IMG/VR virus record: IMGVR_UViG_3300035698_012275
Span: 1 to 22,420 of that record
Length of the DNA stretch: 22,420 nt
Reading direction: 5' to 3' (one strand)
From: a virus
Below the pieces are notes generated by a model that was not told the DNA's origin, searched no databases, and saw nothing but the letters and a program-made list of their open reading frames with translations. Within the stretch, counting starts at the first letter, position 1. Each line of letters starts with the position of its first letter. Below, one piece after another: positions 2,824 through 16,370 of the stretch. The translations under genes and the position numbers were made by a program.

Positions 2824-2827
<4 letters not shown>
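2411..2827 (-). CDS. Acidic coiled-coil protein of unknown function
   Basis: 138 residues. The first 35 residues are very rich in Glu, Ser and Thr and probably disordered. Residues 35-100 are predicted helical with heptad-like spacing (EEVERLENLAHRFVGEDRI, then a Met/Ala-rich helix), followed by a polar tail. The start is GTG at 2827, overlapping the previous stop as GTGA, with a good SD (AAGGGAG, 5 nt away). It sits between the replication block and the lysis genes. No family recognised. An oligomeric accessory protein is plausible, but nothing in the sequence fixes its role. Confidence 0.75.
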
Positions 2828-4233
<1,406 letters not shown>

Positions 4234-4249
4234 TTGTAGCGTCTCCTTT

Positions 4250-5743
4250 CTAGTACTCAGAATTGTTAGGCCCGCGCCGTTGCGAGGCACGGGACGGTGC
4301 ACCTGTTCCTGCGAAAAATCCCTCTGATCGTTTACTCTCTTCAGTCGGCCCTGTATAGGATCCCGCTGGCGGCTTGGCATACTTCCCATCGCGCTCATCG
4401 GGGAACGGTCCATCACTCGCAATATCCCAGCCACGAATGAACATGCGGGAGAGGTCCGACCACAGCCGAATCGTTCCTGTCTTTCCGTGAGTAGCCTTCG
4501 CAATAATCAACTGGGTGTCGGGATCGTCCTCGCACCCTTGCCGGTAATATCCGCGACGGTACATGAACCAGACGACTCGGGCAATTTGCTCGATGGCGCC
4601 GCTCTGTCTCAGGTCGTGTAGCGTGGGGCGTTTATCCTGCCGCCTCTCCACCTCCCTGTTCAGCTGCGTGGCGAGTAGGACCGGGATGTCCAATTCCTTC
4701 GCGATGTCCCGCAATCCCTTTGCGGCATTCTCAACTTGGTTGGTCTGGTTGTCTCCTTTGTCGGTAAGTTCACCGAGGTGATCCACGATGAGGAGGTCCA
4801 ATCCGTGGACCTGTTTATGGAGTGCGGCAACCTGGGCGATCCGCTCGGAGGAGAGGCCGGGAGAGTCATCGATCCAGAGGGGAAGTTTTGAGATCTGCGT
4901 TGCTCCCTGGATCAGTTTCGGCCAATCGTTATTGTGAATAGATCGCAGCATCAAGTCGTTGAGATCTACGTCACCGAATCTCGCCAGTTCTCGCAGAATG
5001 ACATACCGTCTCGCGTCCTCAGTTGGGATGTAGAGGGTATGCCGATTGGCAAGCGCGGCATTGGTTCCGATGTTGAGGCACAGTGCCGACTTCCCCATCC
5101 CTGGACGTGCGCCGCAGACGGTGAGAAGCCCAGGCCATAGTCCTCCGGTAAGTTCGTCGATGGTCCCTATCCCAGTACGATCGAGGCCGGCTGGCATCGT
5201 TCCAGATTCCAGCTCATCGAAGACGGCTGAGAGGTCATCCCCCACTCGCACGGGCCCGTCTCCTCCGTCTATTGCGGAGGCCATTGTGACCGCCTTCCGC
5301 GCCCCAGCTAAGTAGCCACGAACATCTCCGAACTGGCCTCCAAAACCATCTGCTACAATCTGCTGCGCGGCATAAATCATCCGGCGAGCCGCTGCGTGAT
5401 CTCTCACAATTCTTGCATAGTGATCTACGTTTGCGGCAGTAGCCACAGATTCGGTGAGCCCGTTCAGCCCCATGGCGCCGCCGATCTTGTCGAGGCCTCC
5501 GCGCTTCACCAGTTCGTTGCCGAGAGTAACATGGTCGACCGGCGCTCCTTGACTTGCGAGCGCCAGCATCGCTGCGAAGATGCGACGGAATCCTTCGATG
5601 TAGAAATCGGCCCCGTCGATAAGAATACTTCGCACGATAGGTAGCGCATCATTGTTCAAGAGTACCGCCCCGAGGCATGCCACCTCGGCTGTCTTGTCGT
5701 AGGGTGGTACCAGCCCAGCACCTATTCCTGCTGAATCGTTCAT
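4250..5743 (-). CDS. dnaB: DnaB-family replicative DNA helicase
   Basis: 497 residues, typical DnaB length. The N-terminal domain (15-125, starting AEVACLGAVLLNNDALP) is the DnaB-N helical domain that binds primase and loader. The RecA-like motor domain starts near 183. Walker A is GARPGMGKSA at 211-220, Walker B is LDLLIVDHLGEL at 315-326, and motif H3/H4 is TQLNREVERRQDKRPTLHDL followed by SGAIEQIARVV, a DnaB signature. It unwinds the parental duplex 5' to 3' ahead of the phage fork as a hexamer. The start overlaps the stop of the upstream replication gene as ATGA, with a strong SD (GGAGAGGAGG), so helicase and putative loader or initiator are coupled. The C-terminal 60 residues are polar and disordered. 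Confidence 0.95.
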   Translation of the reverse strand: MNDSAGIGAGLVPPYDKTAEVACLGAVLLNNDALPIVRSILIDGADFYIEGFRRIFAAMLALASQGAPVDHVTLGNELVKRGGLDKIGGAMGLNGLTESVATAANVDHYARIVRDHAAARRMIYAAQQIVADGFGGQFGDVRGYLAGARKAVTMASAIDGGDGPVRVGDDLSAVFDELESGTMPAGLDRTGIGTIDELTGGLWPGLLTVCGARPGMGKSALCLNIGTNAALANRHTLYIPTEDARRYVILRELARFGDVDLNDLMLRSIHNNDWPKLIQGATQISKLPLWIDDSPGLSSERIAQVAALHKQVHGLDLLIVDHLGELTDKGDNQTNQVENAAKGLRDIAKELDIPVLLATQLNREVERRQDKRPTLHDLRQSGAIEQIARVVWFMYRRGYYRQGCEDDPDTQLIIAKATHGKTGTIRLWSDLSRMFIRGWDIASDGPFPDERDGKYAKPPAGSYTGPTEESKRSEGFFAGTGAPSRASQRRGPNNSEY

Positions 5744-6681
5744 TGTCCTCCTCTCCTCGTACCCCTGACCTTATCGGCCAGATCGGTTCCGTGTCTATAC
5801 ATTTCGGTCACCCCGCCCTTCGGGTTGTCTTGGTCCTTCACCGCAGCATTCCAAACGAACCGTGCGAGGTCGCGCTTCGCTCTCTTCGGATTCGCGACGG
5901 TCCACCCTGCGAGCTTCGCAATTAGGGTAGCTACATCAACAGAGGGACAGGATTCATTGAGCTTCTGTGCTAACTGAATTGGTCGCTTTGCATTTTTCCA
6001 GAGTGTCTGCTCTCCCTTCCCTGGTATGAGAAACAATTCGCGCTGCATCGCAACATAAATTAAACGCAGCCGCGGGGTCGCATCAATTGGCGGATCAGTT
6101 TCCGGATCGGCTCCGAGGTCAAGAAGAGGAGTCGGGGTGATATGCGGCTTCCGCGTGTCGCCCTCCTCCCTCTTCTCTTGATCCTGATCCTGATCCTGAT
6201 CCTGATCTTGGCTCGGAAGGGGCTCGGAAGGGGCTTCGCCTACGTCCTGTAAAATTCGCTCAATATCTCCTGCTGTAATTGAGTATGCAGAAGCGTAGAT
6301 CTCAAAGAAACGCTGCAGTAGTGCGGTCTTGGGCAGTCGCGACAATTCCTTGAGGAGTCCGATGCGACGGTTATCTTTCGGGGCGAGACGCGCTCCGAGT
6401 TGAAACTTCGCCATCTTCACGACGAGAACCATGTCGGATTTTTCATCGAACTCGCAAAACCCCATCTTGCATAGCTTCCCAAGCCCCTTTGAAGCCCCTT
6501 GTGGATCTATCCCAATGTCCTGTGCCATATAGGGAATTGGGCAATAGTAAAGTCCAGACATGGATGAATGCGGCGAAGTGATAAGATACATTGCAATGCG
6601 TTGTGCATCGCCGTCGCCTCGCAATATCTTCCCTGTTTCCCCTATCCAGAAACGGCCCGATACTATGCTGTAATCGCGCAT
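5740..6681 (-). CDS. Winged-helix replication protein (O/DnaD-like initiator or helicase loader)
   Basis: 313 residues from the ATG at 6681, which lies 4 nt after the recT stop; the frame is open to 6753 but that would overlap recT by 68 nt. Residues 5-100 look like the winged-helix domain common in phage replisome organisers (GRFWIGETGK, AQRIAMYLITSP, YYCPIPYMAQDIGI, then KGLGKLCKMGFCEFDE). A Gln-Asp repeat linker follows, and a helical C-terminal domain (about 220-300, ending ARFVWNAAVKD) is the likely helicase-binding part. The gene is coupled by ATGA overlap to the DnaB helicase. By analogy with lambda O or DnaD proteins it should bind the origin or load the helicase. The fold call is by motif only; the SD is weak (CAGGGA). 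Confidence 0.8.
   Translation of the reverse strand: MRDYSIVSGRFWIGETGKILRGDGDAQRIAMYLITSPHSSMSGLYYCPIPYMAQDIGIDPQGASKGLGKLCKMGFCEFDEKSDMVLVVKMAKFQLGARLAPKDNRRIGLLKELSRLPKTALLQRFFEIYASAYSITAGDIERILQDVGEAPSEPLPSQDQDQDQDQDQEKREEGDTRKPHITPTPLLDLGADPETDPPIDATPRLRLIYVAMQRELFLIPGKGEQTLWKNAKRPIQLAQKLNESCPSVDVATLIAKLAGWTVANPKRAKRDLARFVWNAAVKDQDNPKGGVTEMYRHGTDLADKVRGTRRGGQ
6180..6209. repeat. In-frame hexanucleotide tandem repeat (Gln-Asp)
   Basis: Four perfect copies of GATCCT (6180-6203) and a fifth with one change (6204-6209). On the coding strand they encode alternating Gln and Asp in the linker between the winged-helix and C-terminal domains of the replication protein. The reading frame is kept whatever the copy number. 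Confidence 0.9.
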
Positions 6682-6685
6682 AGTC

Positions 6686-7948
6686 TTACTGTCCCTGTCG
6701 ACCGCGACGACCTCCGCGCTTCGGCTCTTTTCTAAGTTCCACACCTGGCTCATCGTTGGTCTTCTGCTCTTCCGCTTTGAAACGTTCCGCCTCTTCCTGA
6801 TCGATGCGGTTGGCCTCCGTCTTCTCCTCCTCTGTCATCTCCCTGTCGCCCTCCCTGTCGCCCTGCTCCTCCTCGGCCCTTGCTCCCTTGCGCGCTTCCT
6901 CCTCTTCCGGGGTCGGCTCAATGACAGGCTCCTTCCCGCTACTCCCAGAACCTTCTGGCGGCGGTCCCTCATTGTCACCCTGGCTGACGCCTGACTCTCG
7001 AAGCATCTGTTCGCGCAGACTCCCCATCCGGATGAGGCTTGTGGTCTGAACGGGCCCGTCGCCGGCAGCTACGGATCCAGTTGAAGTCCCGTCGAGAACC
7101 GCACTCGGAATTATCTTCTGAATGACATCCTGAAGATCCTGGTTGCGGCCCGATTCTGCCATGCTCACCAGAGCAGCTGCGCGGTCGAAGTCGGGAGAGA
7201 GATCCCAGAACTTAGCTGACCAGCGAACGGCAGTCTTCTGGGCCATCGCTTCGATGTAAGTGATCCACGGAATCTTGCGAATCTGGTACGCGCTCAACTC
7301 CTTCTCCTGCTCGTTCTCGTTCCATTTTTTATAGAAGATCTCCGAGCCATCACTCCTCACTTCCACCCTGATATTCTTGTCTGCCAGGACCCGGTCGCGA
7401 TGCTTGAAGATCGCCGCCATAGCATACGGCTGGCCGAAGTCATAGAAGCCGTCGTGGTATCTCAGCGCGGCGTAGACAGCAACCATCTGGCCTCGTTCCT
7501 GCCGCACATTCCACGTGTGATGGAGAAAGGGATCAGACCCGAGACGGTGAGAAAACTCATCGTTCTCATGCACGATGATTGCCTCGACCTTACGGACCAG
7601 CGGGTCGCGTCGGGCCAGCTTCATCAGTCCTCGGTATTGGACCTGGAGTTGCGTTAGCTTTCTCCACTTCCACTGATTCCCCTCCTTGTACTTCGACGAC
7701 CGTGCTTCCAGGTATGCCTCCCCGAGTGGACCCTCGAACCGAAGGCCGAGAGTCGCAGCCTCGAGGATAGCTCCGAGCGTGGAGTTTGGTTCCGATTCTA
7801 GAACGTCTTTGTCTCCTCCAATGTTGGTCAGCGCGGCATTGATCCACGCGTCCGGATCCATCGAAGACGGGAGCGATGATTTGATCATTTCGCGAATGCC
7901 TTCGGACTCCAACCATCCCTTTACTTTCTCGTAGTTTTGGTGTGCCAT
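6686..7948 (-). CDS. recT: RecT-family single-strand annealing protein
   Basis: 420 residues. Hallmarks of RecT: an N-terminal helix with MIKSSLPSSMDPDAWINAALTNI pattern, TLGAILEAATLGLRFEGPLGEAYLE at 58-81, LQVQYRGLMKLARRDPLVRKVEAIIVHENDEF at 101-132, and FWDLSPDFDRAAAL in the second half. RecT anneals complementary single strands made by its partner exonuclease, here the YqaJ-type gene 24 nt upstream. The core ends near residue 280. The remaining 140 residues are a low-complexity acidic stretch ending in a basic RGGRRGRQGQ tail; SSAP tails often bind partner proteins such as host SSB or DNA. The SD region is GAGGAGAGGAAGAGGAAG. Confidence 0.93.
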   Translation of the reverse strand: MAHQNYEKVKGWLESEGIREMIKSSLPSSMDPDAWINAALTNIGGDKDVLESEPNSTLGAILEAATLGLRFEGPLGEAYLEARSSKYKEGNQWKWRKLTQLQVQYRGLMKLARRDPLVRKVEAIIVHENDEFSHRLGSDPFLHHTWNVRQERGQMVAVYAALRYHDGFYDFGQPYAMAAIFKHRDRVLADKNIRVEVRSDGSEIFYKKWNENEQEKELSAYQIRKIPWITYIEAMAQKTAVRWSAKFWDLSPDFDRAAALVSMAESGRNQDLQDVIQKIIPSAVLDGTSTGSVAAGDGPVQTTSLIRMGSLREQMLRESGVSQGDNEGPPPEGSGSSGKEPVIEPTPEEEEARKGARAEEEQGDREGDREMTEEEKTEANRIDQEEAERFKAEEQKTNDEPGVELRKEPKRGGRRGRQGQ

Positions 7949-7972
7949 CTTCCTCTTCCTCTCCTCTGGGCG

Positions 7973-9196
7973 TCAGCCCAATTTTTGTGTGACTGCTGCT
8001 GCTGCTAATTCAATGGCTGCGCGGATTTCACCAAGCTCCATCTCCAACATGGCTGCGTAGAGATCGGCCCGTGCGCGAAGCTCATCGAACTCTTCAATGC
8101 CTACCTCGATATCAATGTCCTTCCCAGCAAACTCTTGTAGCTCAAGTTCAACGGTGACGATCTGAGAATCCTTCGCCTCGTCTCCGGTCTTCGGACGGTC
8201 CTTCGGTCCGTAGTGATTGAACTGGACATGCGGTTTCCCCTGTACCTCGTACTCCTTGAGATTGAGATCGGGGAAGTCGGCCTGGAGCGCAGACTTGCTG
8301 AAGGACTTCCGCCCAGCTACTTCGCGGTATAGGAATTTATGCCGCCCGATTTGTACAGCATCGAGCTTCGCCTCAGACATCACTTCTGCGACCATTTTCT
8401 TTGCCGCAGCCATCGACCTCGCGGCTGTCAGTTCGCGCTCCTTTGCGAGCTTGTAGGTGTTGACTGCGTCCTGCCACGCGTCTCCCTTCATCTGGCTGTA
8501 CTTCGACTTCGGTTTTACCAGAACGGGCTGGTCGTACTTCTTTGCCTTCGGAGGGATAGACGGCACGACGTTCTCGTCCCAGAAGCGTTTGGCGTTGCTC
8601 CTGATGATCTCGATCATGGGCTGATCGATGGGGAGGTCGATGATTTGAAGCGCGACGTTCTCGCACTCATAGATGACGACGCGGGTGCCCTTTATTTTTC
8701 CGATCCATTTCTCAGCATCGGCGCCGAGGAAGGGCAACGGGCATACGTTGGCACAGTGCGCGAGGTGCATCGATTGAATCATGTAGTAGTCGCGGATCCC
8801 GCTGGCGCGGAAGGAGTCTGCAACCCGTTGCATCGGGCTTTTAATTTCCAGCACCCAACCGTCCTCTATGAAGCCGTCGAAGTCTGCGAAGAGAGGAGAG
8901 TTGGGATCCCAAACCTGGAAGGTCTTGTACCTCTCCTCGTCCGTCTCAGGGGCATAAACCTTCAGGCCCGATTGCATTGCGTAGAAAGCTGCCGCGAGTG
9001 GCTCATATGTATTTCCACGCCGGAGATGCGGGTTGTTGTCTGTACTGAGGAGGTCATCCTCGGCCAGGGTTTTTTTCTTGTCGATGTAGAGGTCCACAGG
9101 CGTATGCTCAAAGACCTTTCCGAGGGCAAGCACCGGGGAGTCCGAAGATCCCACGCCGCGCTGTCTGCCGATCAACCATTCTAATTTTGCGCTCAT
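7973..9196 (-). CDS. YqaJ-type viral recombinase exonuclease (lambda-exo-like)
   Basis: 407 residues from the ATG at 9196 (AAAGGGAG 5 nt upstream); the longer open frame overlaps the upstream gene. PD-(D/E)XK nuclease of the YqaJ family: RQRGVGSSDSP at 11-21, RRGNTYEPLAAAFY at 59-72 (E65), LFADFDGFI at 102-110 (D107), VLEIKSP at 115-121 (E117, K119) and YYMIQSMHLA at 137-146 (Q141). All expected catalytic residues are present. It would degrade one strand of duplex ends so that RecT, directly downstream, can anneal the product. The C-terminal 38 residues (from F370) match a module in the 508-aa protein at 14844-16370, beyond the nuclease core. Confidence 0.92.
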   Translation of the reverse strand: MSAKLEWLIGRQRGVGSSDSPVLALGKVFEHTPVDLYIDKKKTLAEDDLLSTDNNPHLRRGNTYEPLAAAFYAMQSGLKVYAPETDEERYKTFQVWDPNSPLFADFDGFIEDGWVLEIKSPMQRVADSFRASGIRDYYMIQSMHLAHCANVCPLPFLGADAEKWIGKIKGTRVVIYECENVALQIIDLPIDQPMIEIIRSNAKRFWDENVVPSIPPKAKKYDQPVLVKPKSKYSQMKGDAWQDAVNTYKLAKERELTAARSMAAAKKMVAEVMSEAKLDAVQIGRHKFLYREVAGRKSFSKSALQADFPDLNLKEYEVQGKPHVQFNHYGPKDRPKTGDEAKDSQIVTVELELQEFAGKDIDIEVGIEEFDELRARADLYAAMLEMELGEIRAAIELAAAAVTQKLG

Positions 9197-11367: not shown

Positions 11368-11703
11368 TCAGCCCCCCATACCTTTGGGAGGTCCATTTGG
11401 CATAAGCATAGTTACAAGACCTTCCTCGTCGAAGTATCTAACCATGACGGGCCCTCGGCGCCGAAGCTCCTTCAGGGAGGCGGCAAGGCCGATCCCCAGG
11501 CCATAGGTAACCGCCCCTGTCTCTTTCATCCTCGCCGGACTCCCGGCCCCTACAGCCTCCATAAACGCCCTGTACTCAAGGAGGATTCTCTCGGCCCCTT
11601 CCCGCCGTGGTACCTGGTCTGAGATTATGAGATCTGCGATAGCCTCAATACGCTTCGAGGCGTTCCCTGCAGCGAATGGATCTGGTGCTTTACCACGCTT
11701 CAC
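11368..11703 (-). CDS. Small basic protein of unknown function
   Basis: 111 residues from the GTG at 11703, chosen because GAGGAGG lies 7 nt upstream and GTG/TGA overlap the upstream stop by 4 bases; the longer open frame would run back over the zinc-finger gene. The sequence begins VKRGKAPDPFAAGNASKRIEAIADLI, a basic N-terminus followed by helices, then a beta-like end (GPVMVRYFDEEGLVTMLMP) and a Gly/Pro tail. No family recognised. It is the last gene of the AAA+/VWA cassette. The frame after its TGA stays open for 48 more codons to 11221. Confidence 0.72.
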   Translation of the reverse strand: MKRGKAPDPFAAGNASKRIEAIADLIISDQVPRREGAERILLEYRAFMEAVGAGSPARMKETGAVTYGLGIGLAASLKELRRRGPVMVRYFDEEGLVTMLMPNGPPKGMGG

Positions 11704-11885
11704 TTTCTGACCTCCTCTTCCTCTCCGAAATATTCTTCTTCGCAGCCGGGGCACAAGCCGTCAGATACCAGGGCCGTCACCCTGTTAATCGGGTGTACGG
11801 CGTCTACCCACCTCCAGCAATTTTCTACTCCAGCGGGAACCTTCTGTTTGCCGCACCAGCTACAAATTGTGATGGCGATATTCAT
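11700..11885 (-). CDS. Small CxxC zinc-finger protein
   Basis: 61 residues. CSWCGKQ at 8-14 and CPGC at 45-48 make a four-cysteine zinc site of the 'CSWCgk...CPdC' type found in many small bacterial and phage proteins. Its C-terminus is acidic (EEEYFGEEEEVRK). It is probably a small DNA-, RNA- or protein-binding adaptor. It starts 11 nt after the VWA gene and its stop overlaps the next start as GTGA, so it is coupled to the gene after it and may serve with the AAA+/VWA pair. Confidence 0.8.
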   Translation of the reverse strand: MNIAITICSWCGKQKVPAGVENCWRWVDAVHPINRVTALVSDGLCPGCEEEYFGEEEEVRK

Positions 11886-11896
11886 TCTGATTGCCC

Positions 11897-13366
11897 TCAG
11901 ACTTTCCCAAAGAAATTGTGCATTGTTTTTTCATCGCGAAGTGCGTCTGCGAGGACTACGGTATCGTCGCTAAATTTCTCATTGCAGCCTCGGCTGGTTT
12001 GACTCCCGACCAGGATGGAGTAGCAGGAGAAATCCAACTCGTTGCGTTTTCCCTGCCATGCTTTCAACCAGGATTCTGAGATGTGAGATTGACCGTCTGT
12101 AACCATGACGATGTCGGCCTTCTGGAAGGCTCCTTGGTCGCGGATAATATTAACGGCGTGATCCAGACACGGTTCAAATTCTGTCCCCCCGCAGGCGGCG
12201 AAAAAGTTTATCGCCTCGGTGATCGACTCAGGCGTCATGGCGGCGCGATTCTCGAAGACGTCGGTACGGAGTACTGAGGATCCGAAATGAACTATCGCGA
12301 AGGATCGATTCTGCTTCTTCGCCACATCCATGAAGGCGAGGCATACCGCAGCGGCCCAGACATCTGCATCGCCAGATCTCATGGATCCGGAGGAGTCCAG
12401 AACCATCACGATTGGTCCCTTGTGATCCTTCTGCTTGTCGGCTTTCTCTACACAGGCGAGGCTGCGCTCCGCATACTTTGCGGCGAAGAGGGGGCGGAGC
12501 TTCGGTGTGCTGAAGACCAGTTCCCGAAAACAGAGGTTACTGAGGTCGTTGGAATAGCGGCGACCCACCCTCTCTCCTGTGCCGAAGCGCGGTTTTTTTC
12601 TCTGCTCTTCCGACGCGATGCGACGAAGGCGTCCTGCCAGATCTGCTATCTTGCGAAGCCGGTCGTTTCCTCCCACAATCTGCGCGAGCTTCGCGCCGGT
12701 TGCCATCACGGTCTGTCTTCCGTCATGCTGATCGAGTCCTATCCCATACGCTTCGACCAGCGCGTTCATTTTGTCGATAGCCTCTCCTGCAGCCTTCGCC
12801 GCTTTCCGCATTGCGGTACGGGCCGCAGTCATATCGATTTCTTCGGCTGCGGCTTCTGAATCCTCGCGGTCCTTCTCCATTTCCTCCAGGACTTCATCAA
12901 GGGTTTCCTCTATGGCTTCAGCCTGCTCCTCGTCTCCCTCCGCCTCGGCGTCAGCCAGGAGCCTCTCCAGGTAGTCTACGGCCTCTTCATCGGCGCGGAG
13001 GTCTCCGACGGGAGAGGACGGCGGCGCGAGCTTCGTCATCAGGTCGTCTATCATCGCGGTTGTGACTACTCCCGACCATCCATCATTCCCTACCGTCTGT
13101 GCGCGGAGATCATTTACCTCGGGCACGTCCCGCATCGCTCGGTCCAACTTCTCAAAAACCTCCGCACCTTCCTCTACCGCTTCAAGGCGGCGCGGTTCAT
13201 CAGCATGAAAATAGTGGTACATCTCTGCTGCGAAATCGGGGAATGCTGCGTAGCGATTGCGGCCTTCCGCCTCCGCTTTCTGCGCGGACTCATCGGTCAG
13301 CGTGTGATGCGACCAGAGGTGACGGTCAAACTCGGAAGCCTCGTAAATTAGTGGGCGCGTTTTCAT
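11897..13366 (-). CDS. ViaA-like VWA-domain protein, partner of the MoxR ATPase
   Basis: 489 residues. The C-terminal third is a von Willebrand factor A domain with an intact metal site: GPIVMVLDSSGSM at 317-329 (D324, S326, S328), ACGGTEFEPC at 391-400 (T395) and IVMVTDGQS at 419-427 (D424). The spacing and wording resemble E. coli ViaA. Residues 125-180 are a long acidic coiled coil; 1-120 and 200-310 are helical and unassigned. VWA proteins of this type bind and are worked by a MoxR ATPase, which is encoded 9 nt upstream. I chose the ATG at 13366 (SD AGGTGG, 5 nt); a GTG at 13375 is possible. CobT-like VWA proteins are the alternative family. Confidence 0.88.
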   Translation of the reverse strand: MKTRPLIYEASEFDRHLWSHHTLTDESAQKAEAEGRNRYAAFPDFAAEMYHYFHADEPRRLEAVEEGAEVFEKLDRAMRDVPEVNDLRAQTVGNDGWSGVVTTAMIDDLMTKLAPPSSPVGDLRADEEAVDYLERLLADAEAEGDEEQAEAIEETLDEVLEEMEKDREDSEAAAEEIDMTAARTAMRKAAKAAGEAIDKMNALVEAYGIGLDQHDGRQTVMATGAKLAQIVGGNDRLRKIADLAGRLRRIASEEQRKKPRFGTGERVGRRYSNDLSNLCFRELVFSTPKLRPLFAAKYAERSLACVEKADKQKDHKGPIVMVLDSSGSMRSGDADVWAAAVCLAFMDVAKKQNRSFAIVHFGSSVLRTDVFENRAAMTPESITEAINFFAACGGTEFEPCLDHAVNIIRDQGAFQKADIVMVTDGQSHISESWLKAWQGKRNELDFSCYSILVGSQTSRGCNEKFSDDTVVLADALRDEKTMHNFFGKV

Positions 13367-13375
13367 CGTAACCAC

Positions 13376-14785
13376 CTACCCGGCGACCGGGCGATAAAGT
13401 GTTATTTCCTGGCCCCTTCTCGCAAGCTGTTTCAGCGCGACCTCGACGACCTCGACGGCCTCCTTCACGGAGTCGTTGTCGGGAGACTTCTCCGCAACAT
13501 CCATGATTGCGTCTCGGCGTCCACCAAGCTCGGCCTGTATCTCTCCCATCTGCTTCGCGGCGGCTGGCTTCGAGAGCGTTCCGATTTTGACATCGGCTAC
13601 TGACGGCAGCTTCCTCATTGCGATGCGAACACCGTCGATGATGGACGTTGCTTGCGAGCCGTAGGGGTCAGCGGCATTGCCTACCACCTTGAGCAGCGCG
13701 GGGCGTTCGGTGTGAACCTTCCAGAGAGTATCCGCGAGGACCAGGAAATCGTTCGGCTGTACGCTGTCGTGTCCGTTTACCACGGCGCGAGCTCTTATCA
13801 GTTTTGCGGCCTTGCCTATCCAGGTTCGGTCGGAACCTGCGAACCCTGCGCTCTCGATGGCGGATTTGATACTCATCAGAATTCTTGCCTCATCTATTCC
13901 CCAGGGAATCTGGTCGGCCATGATTCTGAGAGCTTCCAACTCGCTGCGGTTGAGTGTCGCGGTCACGGCGGGAGTCCCTGTCGTGAGAAGTCCGAGAAGG
14001 GCGTTCTGATCTCCGATGCTTTCTACCCAGTAGCGTAGGGTGAAGCGGTCGTAGAGGGCATCGAGGGAGGGATCCTCGGGGTACTCGTTCGACATGCCGA
14101 AGACAGTCTCGAGAACGAGGTCGATCATCTCGGCGCCGTTCCGCATTTTCCTCTGCTGCGTCGCGAGGAGGAATCCATTGAGTAGGGCACTGCCGGCCTT
14201 GAAAATTTCATCCAGAATCCAGACCTGCTTCACGGGCGCGACTCCGTCTACACATCTTTCGTAACGGTCCTCATTCATCATCTTCTGTGCGCTGAAGATC
14301 CCGAAGACCTCCTCCGGCGATGTGTCCTTCGTGAGTTGAATCTCGAAGACAGAAAAGTCGATGCACTCGGCAATCGTTTCGGCTAGTTCTGTTTTCGCGG
14401 TGCCGGGAGGTCCGAGAGCGAGCATGTGTTCCCTGGCAATCAGCGCGGTTAGCGCACCGTCGATGGGTGCGGACCTCTCCACGAAGTGAGCCTTGAGTTG
14501 GGTGCGAACCTGGGAGAGGTGTGCGAGGACTTCGGGGCGGAAATTCTTCATCAGTTTTTGGGCATCATAGACCGCTTGTTTTTTTGCCTTCGCTGCGGTC
14601 TTCTGCATCGCCTTTTTTTCATCCTCGGACTTCGCCCGATTCTCAATAACCCTCCGCTGTTCTGCCAGCTGAGTCATCAGCATCTTGCATTCCATCTGGG
14701 CCAGCATCGCGTCTGCGGCATCGGCCCCGTTTACTGCGCGTTGCGCGAGGTCCATCAGGGTTTCGTTCTTGCTAAGTGCGTTCAT
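13376..14785 (-). CDS. RavA-like MoxR-family AAA+ ATPase
   Basis: 469 residues from the ATG at 14785 (AAAAGGAG 6 nt upstream). Residues 1-85 are helical and Lys/Gln-rich; the AAA+ module spans about 90-340. Walker A is GPPGTAKTELA (125-135), followed by SPEEVFGIFSAQKM and RYERCVDG, then Walker B QVWILDEIFKAG (187-198), sensor GMSNEYPEDPSLDALYDRFTLRYW (230-253, with N233 and R247). This order and wording match the RavA branch of MoxR proteins closely. Such ATPases act as chaperone-like remodelling machines with a VWA partner, encoded immediately downstream. The target is unknown. The C-terminal 120 residues are helical and may be the substrate or partner domain. Confidence 0.92.
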   Translation of the reverse strand: MNALSKNETLMDLAQRAVNGADAADAMLAQMECKMLMTQLAEQRRVIENRAKSEDEKKAMQKTAAKAKKQAVYDAQKLMKNFRPEVLAHLSQVRTQLKAHFVERSAPIDGALTALIAREHMLALGPPGTAKTELAETIAECIDFSVFEIQLTKDTSPEEVFGIFSAQKMMNEDRYERCVDGVAPVKQVWILDEIFKAGSALLNGFLLATQQRKMRNGAEMIDLVLETVFGMSNEYPEDPSLDALYDRFTLRYWVESIGDQNALLGLLTTGTPAVTATLNRSELEALRIMADQIPWGIDEARILMSIKSAIESAGFAGSDRTWIGKAAKLIRARAVVNGHDSVQPNDFLVLADTLWKVHTERPALLKVVGNAADPYGSQATSIIDGVRIAMRKLPSVADVKIGTLSKPAAAKQMGEIQAELGGRRDAIMDVAEKSPDNDSVKEAVEVVEVALKQLARRGQEITLYRPVAG

Positions 14786-14802
14786 CTCGTTCTCCTTTTC
14801 GT

Positions 14803-14821
14803 CGCGACCTCTCGGGTTGCG
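14803..14821 (-). promoter_or_regulatory. Pentaloop hairpin upstream of the RavA-like gene's SD
   Basis: The transcribed strand reads CGCAACC-CGAGA-GGTCGCG: a 7-position stem with one A.C mismatch and a 5-nt loop, ending 5 nt before the AAAAGGAG SD. It shares stem pattern, loop length and placement with hairpins before the genes starting at 18226, 19696 and 19974. It is a candidate translational operator. Confidence 0.5.
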
Positions 14822-14843
14822 GTTGTGATTAGCCTCTCCCACC

Positions 14844-16370
14844 TTACGCGCTCATCTCGATGACAGCAGCCTTACGACCCTTGCGAGTTTTCTCGGGCTT
14901 CTCGGCGGCCTTTGCGGCCTTGTCGGCGGCTTTCTTTTCTTCCCTCTCCTTCGCCTTCTCGGCCTTGCGCTCCGCCTTCTCCTCTTCCAGCTTCTCAGCC
15001 TTCTCATTCTCTTCGGTCTCGCGCTTCGACAAATCCTGCGTAACCCGCGTGGCGCACAGGGTGAGCTTGTCGGTCAGGTCGTCGATTGTGGTACCCAGAA
15101 TCGACTGGTAAAGTTCGGCCTTGGCGCGAAGCTCGTCGAAGTCTGCCATGCGCTTCTCCAGGGTACTCGTTCTCACGTTCGTCCAGCCGTCCTTGGCGTA
15201 GTAGTCCATCAGAATGATGAGGTCAGCAAGCTGTCCTTCTAGACCGTCGCGGGTAGCTGCGCGAAGTGACTCGATAGTCTCCTTCGTATCGAAGGTCGGA
15301 ATGACTACGGTAGTCATCCTGATCTCTGTCATAAAACCGTGCCATGCGCGGACCTTGTCGGCGTTGATTGCGGGGAGGTACCAGAGTCCACCGTGAGGGA
15401 GGACGGGACATGCGGCCCACTTCTTGAAAGCCTGCTGGAAGGCGCTCCGGATGTCGTTGGTGAGATAGGTATAGGCAAGCTCCAGATATTTCTCCTTGAG
15501 ATCGACTGCGGCGACATGCTCGGGATCCTCCACGATGAGGCAACCCTCTGGGCTCGCTCCCTCGCGATATGCGCTCTTGTCGAAGCCTACTTTTATTTCT
15601 GTCTCGAAGCTGACGTCCTTTGCGGAAACGCTATCGTCGGAATCGTCTACCACTTTCGAGGTCACGATGGCGTGAACCAGCTTGTCGGCGGAGTCCTCCA
15701 CGATGCGGGCCATCGGCTTGCCGCTGCTGTCCGCCTTGCCGACTGTGAAGACCAGGGAGATGGCTTTCCGGTAGCAGGAGTTCGGGGTTGTTCTCGGGAA
15801 GGCAAGGTCATCCTCGATGCCGAATTTTACTGCGGCTGCGAGAACCTCATCCTGTCTCCGAGTACCGGAGAGGCTCCATCCACATAAGTCTCCCAAATGC
15901 TTTCCCTCGGCTTGCTGGATAGCCTCTTGAACTTCCGTTGCCTTGATCGGGATATGCGCGGTCGGAACCGGCTTCGGCTGAACGGCTTTCTTCTCCGCAG
16001 CTGCGCGGTTTTTCATCTCCTTTTTCGTGGGCGCGGAAGTTTTCTCAGGCGCCGTTTTCTCCTCCACTTTTTTCTCTACGTTCTTCGCGGCTTTCGTCGC
16101 GGTTTTTTTCTCTACTTTTTGCGGCTCGACTTCCGCGCCGGCAGCGAGAAAACATTCGATGTCGTTGAGGTCCATCTCTGCTCCGAGGCCGAGAGCTTCC
16201 GCCATCGACGTCGTCCAGCGACCCAGGATTTTATCTCTGCGAGCCCAGGACTCACGGAGGAGCTTGCGAGCTACGTGCCGGACCTCTTTGTCCTGGTCCT
16301 TGTCCTTGCTGATGGCCTTGGCGATGTCCGTTGCGGTGTGAACGAGAATGTTCGTTGTATTCTGGGTCAT
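14844..16370 (-). CDS. Unknown 508-aa protein heading the MoxR/VWA cassette
   Basis: ATG at 16370 follows a perfect SD (AGGAGG, 5 nt). Layout: 1-80 helical; 80-135 a Lys/Glu/Ala/Pro linker; 140-410 a globular core with CGWSLSGTRRQDEVLAAA, LPHGGLWYLPAI (324-335) and RMTTVVIPTFDTKETI; 411-448 a helical module nearly matching the YqaJ exonuclease C-terminus; 449-508 a highly charged coiled coil with a basic end. No catalytic motif is evident. The GGLWYLP motif reminds me of phage proteins seen beside MoxR/VWA pairs, but I cannot name the family. It is the first gene after promoter P1 and lies 58 nt upstream of the RavA-like gene, so the three products probably work together, this one as adaptor or substrate. 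Confidence 0.83.
   Translation of the reverse strand: MTQNTTNILVHTATDIAKAISKDKDQDKEVRHVARKLLRESWARRDKILGRWTTSMAEALGLGAEMDLNDIECFLAAGAEVEPQKVEKKTATKAAKNVEKKVEEKTAPEKTSAPTKKEMKNRAAAEKKAVQPKPVPTAHIPIKATEVQEAIQQAEGKHLGDLCGWSLSGTRRQDEVLAAAVKFGIEDDLAFPRTTPNSCYRKAISLVFTVGKADSSGKPMARIVEDSADKLVHAIVTSKVVDDSDDSVSAKDVSFETEIKVGFDKSAYREGASPEGCLIVEDPEHVAAVDLKEKYLELAYTYLTNDIRSAFQQAFKKWAACPVLPHGGLWYLPAINADKVRAWHGFMTEIRMTTVVIPTFDTKETIESLRAATRDGLEGQLADLIILMDYYAKDGWTNVRTSTLEKRMADFDELRAKAELYQSILGTTIDDLTDKLTLCATRVTQDLSKRETEENEKAEKLEEEKAERKAEKAKEREEKKAADKAAKAAEKPEKTRKGRKAAVIEMSA

Follow-up and report, generated by a model that had tools for sequence, protein, structure and literature searches.

We examined a linear virus record of 22.4 kb (IMG/VR record IMGVR_UViG_3300035698_012275; the window hereafter means all of its 22,420 nucleotides), in which three neighbouring genes encode a 508-amino-acid (aa) protein of the Pfam family DUF6744, a MoxR-type AAA+ ATPase and a protein with a VWA domain. 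These three genes are conserved as a unit in phages and prophage-like regions, and the surroundings of this triplet point to recombination. Furthermore, in the window's clade a tail is common to the DUF6744 protein and an exonuclease encoded nearby. We consider it moderately probable that the triplet is a remodelling machine, which would load, unload or activate the phage annealing-protein/exonuclease complex at the expense of ATP, with DUF6744 as the adaptor.

To collect relatives, viral contigs were scanned with a MoxR alignment, without use of DUF6744, and 21 loci or records were taken from the matches listed. VWA was found near MoxR in all 21, and DUF6744 in 17; one further record carries DUF6744 21 kb away, which brings the records with DUF6744 to 18 of 21. 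An earlier reading made from the sequence alone (the sequence-only reading) had proposed a three- or four-part machine including the 508-aa protein. Absence of the gene beside most phage MoxR/VWA pairs would have counted against that reading; the opposite was found, and its co-occurrence supports an AAA+/VWA machine of three parts, the 508-aa protein being the conserved third. The reverse search took DUF6744 as its starting point in genomes of Paenibacillales, Bacillota and Myxococcota; of the 46 loci fetched (including one re-fetched phage record, L241, and one 3-kb contig), 37 had both MoxR and VWA at a distance of about 10 kb or less. In the 67 triplet loci, the three genes always share one strand (67/67) and mostly follow the order DUF6744-MoxR-VWA (61/67), and they are contiguous, with gaps below 400 nt, in 39. 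Among the best 80 cellular MoxR matches, DUF6744 was nearby in only five, and 15 of 16 DUF6744-less genomes searched whole were without it. All scans used pattern-limited queries with the best matches listed; the loci are not phylogenetically independent, and many of the "cellular" ones are presumed prophages. Alignment queries were needed, since single-protein scans of viral contigs found no relatives, and a scan of genome contigs with a tight DUF6744 alignment gave no matches. Records of Salmonella, E. coli and Campylobacter that are labelled as phage, as well as four of the five faecal scaffolds, resemble host chromosome carrying RavA-ViaA or its kin, and these matches served only as controls. 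One of them (L004, GenBank "Campylobacter phage A11a") has enterobacterial-looking genes (rbs, kup, ravA-viaA and asnA by eye) and represents contamination.

A few loci lack the usual MoxR and have DUF6744 beside a different AAA+ ATPase. In three Paenibacillales loci (L211:10512-12056, L212:6969-8591 and L213:7347-8888) a classical AAA ATPase follows DUF6744 in place of MoxR/VWA, and in L211 and L213 a single-stranded DNA-binding protein (SSB) and a primase-like zinc finger are encoded close to DUF6744. In L243, also without the usual MoxR, the gene directly upstream of DUF6744 encodes a fusion of SSB with a RadC-like JAB domain (8542-9081), and in L218 DUF6744 lies near another AAA+ gene with a DUF2201 VWA.

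The surroundings of the triplet were then compared between loci with and without DUF6744. In the window, the cassette is followed on its 3' side, in order, by genes for a phrog_1218-like nuclease, a YqaJ exonuclease, RecT, a DnaD-like loader and a DnaB helicase (Table 1), so that both an exonuclease (YqaJ) and an annealing protein (RecT), the pair that defines a recombination module here, are encoded beside the cassette. Annealing-protein genes occur near DUF6744 in 13 of 27 viral loci and in 12 of 41 cellular loci with MoxR and VWA (25/68 in total), against 0 of 75 cellular MoxR loci without DUF6744. When any gene for an annealing protein, exonuclease, SSB, clamp or DnaB is counted, the corresponding numbers are 18/27, 18/41 and 3/75. 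In both counts the contrast is somewhat inflated, because the recombination-gene profiles were seeded in DUF6744 loci. RecT is found in the window's clade and in Paenibacillus L088, Sak4 adjoins a phrog_1218 exonuclease in L013, L016, L019 and L022, and RAD52-like proteins are encoded in eleven Myxococcota loci, mostly beside a PD-(D/E)XK nuclease. The window's second nuclease-like gene is kin of the phrog_1218-type exonuclease that adjoins Sak4 in other DUF6744 phages; its L013 homologue matches phrog_1218 at 8.2e-15, and the 388-aa product itself has no direct Pfam nuclease match. In Alicyclobacillus (L056:7687-8907) the gene immediately upstream of the triplet encodes a sliding clamp (processivity factor), and clamp genes are also near MoxR/VWA in L003 and L005.

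The exonuclease and the DUF6744 protein are linked by sequence as well. The last 48 aa of the window exonuclease repeat a helical hairpin from the C-terminal part of DUF6744. A profile to which seven exonucleases contributed their last 48 residues, and nothing else, was run against 4052 open reading frames (ORFs); at E below 0.1 its matches were confined to exonucleases, members of DUF6744 and a single 240-aa protein of L039. When 95-100-kb phage contigs were searched whole, the hairpin came up in exactly two places, DUF6744 and the exonuclease. In three contigs that carry a tailed exonuclease and lack MoxR, the sequence stops just upstream of the exonuclease, at the position expected for the triplet. 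The L039 protein (7839-8561), of no known family and encoded between exonuclease and RecT, bears a third copy of the hairpin (4.5e-9).

The 508-aa gene had been taken as unknown. The gene is real, and its product is not wholly without kin, since it scores 40.6 bits against PF20529 (curated cut-off 27). An N-terminal helical region (aa 1-80) is joined by a disordered charged linker (81-140) to an alpha/beta core (144-360), followed by long C-terminal helices (363-490) with an end rich in lysine and glutamate. The AlphaFold2 model has a mean predicted local distance difference test score of 82 for the whole protein and 87.5 for the core, which is thus modelled with confidence. Identity to the Moorella phage homologue is 21% over 299 aa. 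A sequence search of the PDB gave no significant match, and fold searches with the whole protein and with the core gave none at E <= 0.001. CorA/ZntB and ribosome recycling factor were considered as fold kin (VIA-align Z up to 11 over about 90-100 residues) and rejected, as the matches cover mostly the C-terminal helices and fall below the level cautioned for helical bundles. Structural relatives came solely from BFVD, all of them uncharacterised viral proteins, including one of the halovirus HVTV-1. A literature search found no paper mentioning DUF6744. In L017 (7806-8960) the DUF6744 protein has a SAP-like C-terminal motif by eye, hinting at DNA binding.

The two partner proteins carry the motifs that the sequence-only reading had described as intact. 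The ATPase has Walker A LGPPGTAKT, Walker B WILDEIF, GMSNE in the sensor-1 region, DRF in the arginine-finger region and SDR in the lid; with its AAA_5 core and AAA_lid_8 it belongs to the MoxR-type AAA+ proteins, and it matches bpMoxR (PF20030) at 3.8e-41 (140.9 bits, cut-off 27) and has about 85 aa of additional helical sequence at its N-terminus. The VWA protein has a C-terminal VWA domain (VWA_2, 6.2e-10) with an intact metal-ion-dependent adhesion site (MIDAS; DSSGS/GGT/TDG), and matches phrog_24053 (9.7e-40) across nearly its whole length.

The same reading had called the pair RavA-ViaA-like, which as family membership does not hold. E. coli RavA-ViaA likewise has a MoxR AAA+ protein and a C-terminal VWA protein encoded side by side, and RavA is the only strong solved match of the window ATPase (6.6e-38). 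However, the likeness covers the AAA+ and VWA domains alone, and the window has DUF6744 as a third gene. As to the C-terminal LARA domain of RavA, the matches extend to near RavA residue 288 of about 500. Against the NCBIfam RavA equivalog the window MoxR reaches 142 bits (cut-off 681; control RavA in L004, 993), and against the ViaA equivalog the window VWA reaches 57.8 bits, in the VWA part only (cut-off 500; L004 control, 879). In a tree of 153 rows the window ATPase falls among other DUF6744-linked ATPases, whereas the RavA controls group with DUF6744-less cellular MoxR; the split has moderate support (SH-like approximate likelihood ratio test, 83).

How the machine might work is suggested by analogy with NorQ/NorD, CbbQ/CbbO and RavA-ViaA. 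NorQD and CbbQO serve as the model for how a VWA protein could dock in a MoxR ring and turn its MIDAS to a target (PMC9976466); their targets are metabolic enzymes, and DUF6744 is not part of these systems. By this model, the window MoxR would form an ATP-driven ring on which the VWA protein would dock, presenting its MIDAS to the target. DUF6744 would be the adaptor tying this motor to the recombination/replication apparatus (exonuclease, annealing protein, SSB), and the likeliest outcome would be that the annealing-protein/exonuclease complex is loaded, unloaded or activated on DNA ends or replicating DNA. We infer the ring and VWA docking, the adaptor role and the direction of remodelling. 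In the window's clade, where the DUF6744 hairpin is repeated on the YqaJ exonuclease, one partner surface could hold both exonuclease and adaptor, or the two could pair with each other; we propose the hairpin as the contact they have in common. A narrower proposal, possible and offered tentatively, is that MoxR-VWA-DUF6744 is a dedicated remodeller of phage homologous-recombination complexes, and that the FDELRxRAxLY hairpin serves as a portable tag for docking, which has passed between adaptor and exonuclease and marks the clients of the machine.

Several observations, besides the inflated contrast above, weigh against a remodeller of recombination complexes. Gene neighbourhood does not establish a mechanism, and clustering is in any case usual among early phage genes; no annealing-protein gene lies within reach in about half of the viral DUF6744 loci, in most copies from Paenibacillales and in some of those from Myxococcota; the L018 triplet is close to a terminase gene; no PDB fold significantly matches the DUF6744 core, leaving DNA or protein binding putative; and the tail, being a helical hairpin, might only dimerise. 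The first two of these fit an unlikely alternative, that the three early genes act jointly on something else and merely hitch-hike in the same early block as recombination genes. Arguing against hitch-hiking, three unrelated annealing families recur in Bacillota, Myxococcota and phages and in none of the 75 controls, and the exonuclease shares its tail with DUF6744. The sequence-only reading had named virion assembly, replication complexes or host defence as targets; what we found favours replication/recombination complexes and lends the other two little support.

Slightly less likely still, the triplet could be a virion-assembly chaperone, with MoxR/VWA remodelling head or tail proteins. This role has been proposed for p618/p892 of Acidianus two-tailed virus (ATV) and for the MoxR-vWA of group 2.2 jumbo phages, which are likewise virus-encoded pairs, and the available portions of these two papers report no DUF6744 partner or recombination link (PMC4124505, PMC7824862). 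The terminase gene of L018 would fit the same role. However, the genes recurring beside the triplet belong to recombination and replication and are not late genes, and the protein that bears the common tail is an exonuclease rather than a structural protein.

Metal or cofactor insertion, as by NorQ/NorD or CobS/CobT, is improbable; the triplet would then mature a phage ribonucleotide reductase (RNR) or Fe-S nuclease, or boost cobalamin synthesis. MoxR/VWA pairs often mature metalloenzymes (PMC9976466), and CobST, the AAA+/VWA pair encoded by haloviruses and cyanophages, has been read as a helper of cobalamin synthesis (PMC8651126). HVTV-1 encodes both CobS and a VWA protein, its gene 25 matches the DUF6744 profile (2.7e-15), and a DUF6744 protein was present in 8 of 8 halovirus records found with HVTV-1-type CobS. 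On kinship with viral CobS, the window MoxR profile does not match HVTV-1 CobS, and the window MoxR matches phrog_249 weakly (4.8e-5). An RNR gene near DUF6744 was noted in Moorella phage MTATph1 and in HVTV-1, and in these two records only, no systematic RNR scan having been made. That all CobS phages carry DUF6744 is ruled out, since it was not found in five phages searched outside the haloviruses (three chosen for CobS-like matches, one cyanophage and one pelagiphage). Metal insertion also leaves the annealing-protein link and the exonuclease tail unexplained.

Equally improbable is a defence or counter-defence system on phages and prophages: the bpMoxR domain is named after MoxR-vWA ternary conflict systems (PMC7159879) and one Anaeromyxobacter locus adjoins a PDC-S21 candidate defence gene, but PADLOC gave no informative match for the window's DUF6744, MoxR and VWA (weak AAA+ matches only), which speaks against a known system, no swapped effector domains were seen, and the window module adjoins the replication/recombination region. 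The ternary systems (Kaur et al. 2020) share with the triplet MoxR, vWA and a third component; theirs is VMAP or a beta-propeller, whereas here it is DUF6744 at a phage or prophage site beside recombination genes, and no beta-propeller or VMAP partner was found among the proteins scanned in the 22-kb window fragment. Near the triplet of an Anaeromyxobacter locus (L093:5904-7347), a gene encodes a DUF6791-ThiF (E1-like) protein, and a further gene looks ubiquitin-like by eye.

The features of the window are collected in Table 1. All four cassette genes are intact, on the minus strand that carries almost all coding of the window, and placed as the sequence-only reading had them; their adjacency is borne out, and conservation counts in relatives take the grouping beyond chance. 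The mini-gene had been suggested as a fourth part of the machine, which is ruled out, as neither tblastn nor profiles found a counterpart in any relative. That the cassette has its own promoter is plausible at most. The TTTACA-16-TATATT site 5' of the cassette is no better than chance (three sites found, 2.1 expected); in the relative L044, TTTACA-16-TATAAT and AGGAGG occur at the same place, and together the two sites make a candidate promoter plausible. The gene at 2824-4503 encodes a low-complexity charged protein with KKEEP and DTDT repeats.

Table 1. Features of the window discussed in the text.
Feature	Position	Strand	Remarks
DUF6744 protein, 508 aa	14844..16370	-	ATG after AGGAGG; ORF could extend to 16484; PF20529 2e-10
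DUF6744 C-terminal helical hairpin, aa 405-447, begins EKRMADFDELRAKAELY	15030..15158	-	exonuclease-tail profile match 7.3e-6
MoxR-type AAA+ ATPase, 469 aa	13376..14785	-	ORF 14842-13376, likely ATG 14785
VWA protein, 489 aa	11897..13366	-	ORF 13375-11897, likely ATG 13366
Zinc-ribbon-like mini-gene, 61 aa, outside the module	11700..11885	-	five Cys, four in two CxxC pairs
Second nuclease-like gene, 388 aa	9208..10374	-	profile links to phrog_1218-type exonuclease
YqaJ/RecE-type exonuclease, 425 aa	7973..9250	-	YqaJ 2.1e-14, phrog_434 8.4e-32
Exonuclease tail homologous to DUF6744 hairpin (FDELRARADLY)	7976..8119	-	sequence profile
RecT-family single-strand annealing protein	6686..7948	-	RecT 1.3e-24, phrog_148 9.5e-40
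DnaD-like helicase loader	5740..6753	-	phrog_1701 6.8e-39
DnaB-like replicative helicase	4250..5743	-	translation read by author; derived profile finds homologues in other loci

Phage MoxR/VWA pairs have been assigned roles by analogy, either as chaperones of virions or as helpers for vitamin B12, and neither published reading (virion assembly, or cobalamin synthesis for CobST) predicts the pattern observed here. Phage RecET/Red-type modules pair an exonuclease with a single-strand annealing protein, as found here beside the triplet; we know of no AAA+/VWA machine in the known ones. The constant third partner, the three unrelated annealing families and the exonuclease-linked helical module make a different role directly testable, and DUF6744 gains its first functional setting from the triplet and its recombination context. 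If the remodelling reading is true, the triplet would be an AAA+/VWA machine with recombination proteins as its targets, and the role at issue would be to control phage recombination, which genome engineering makes use of, at the expense of ATP.

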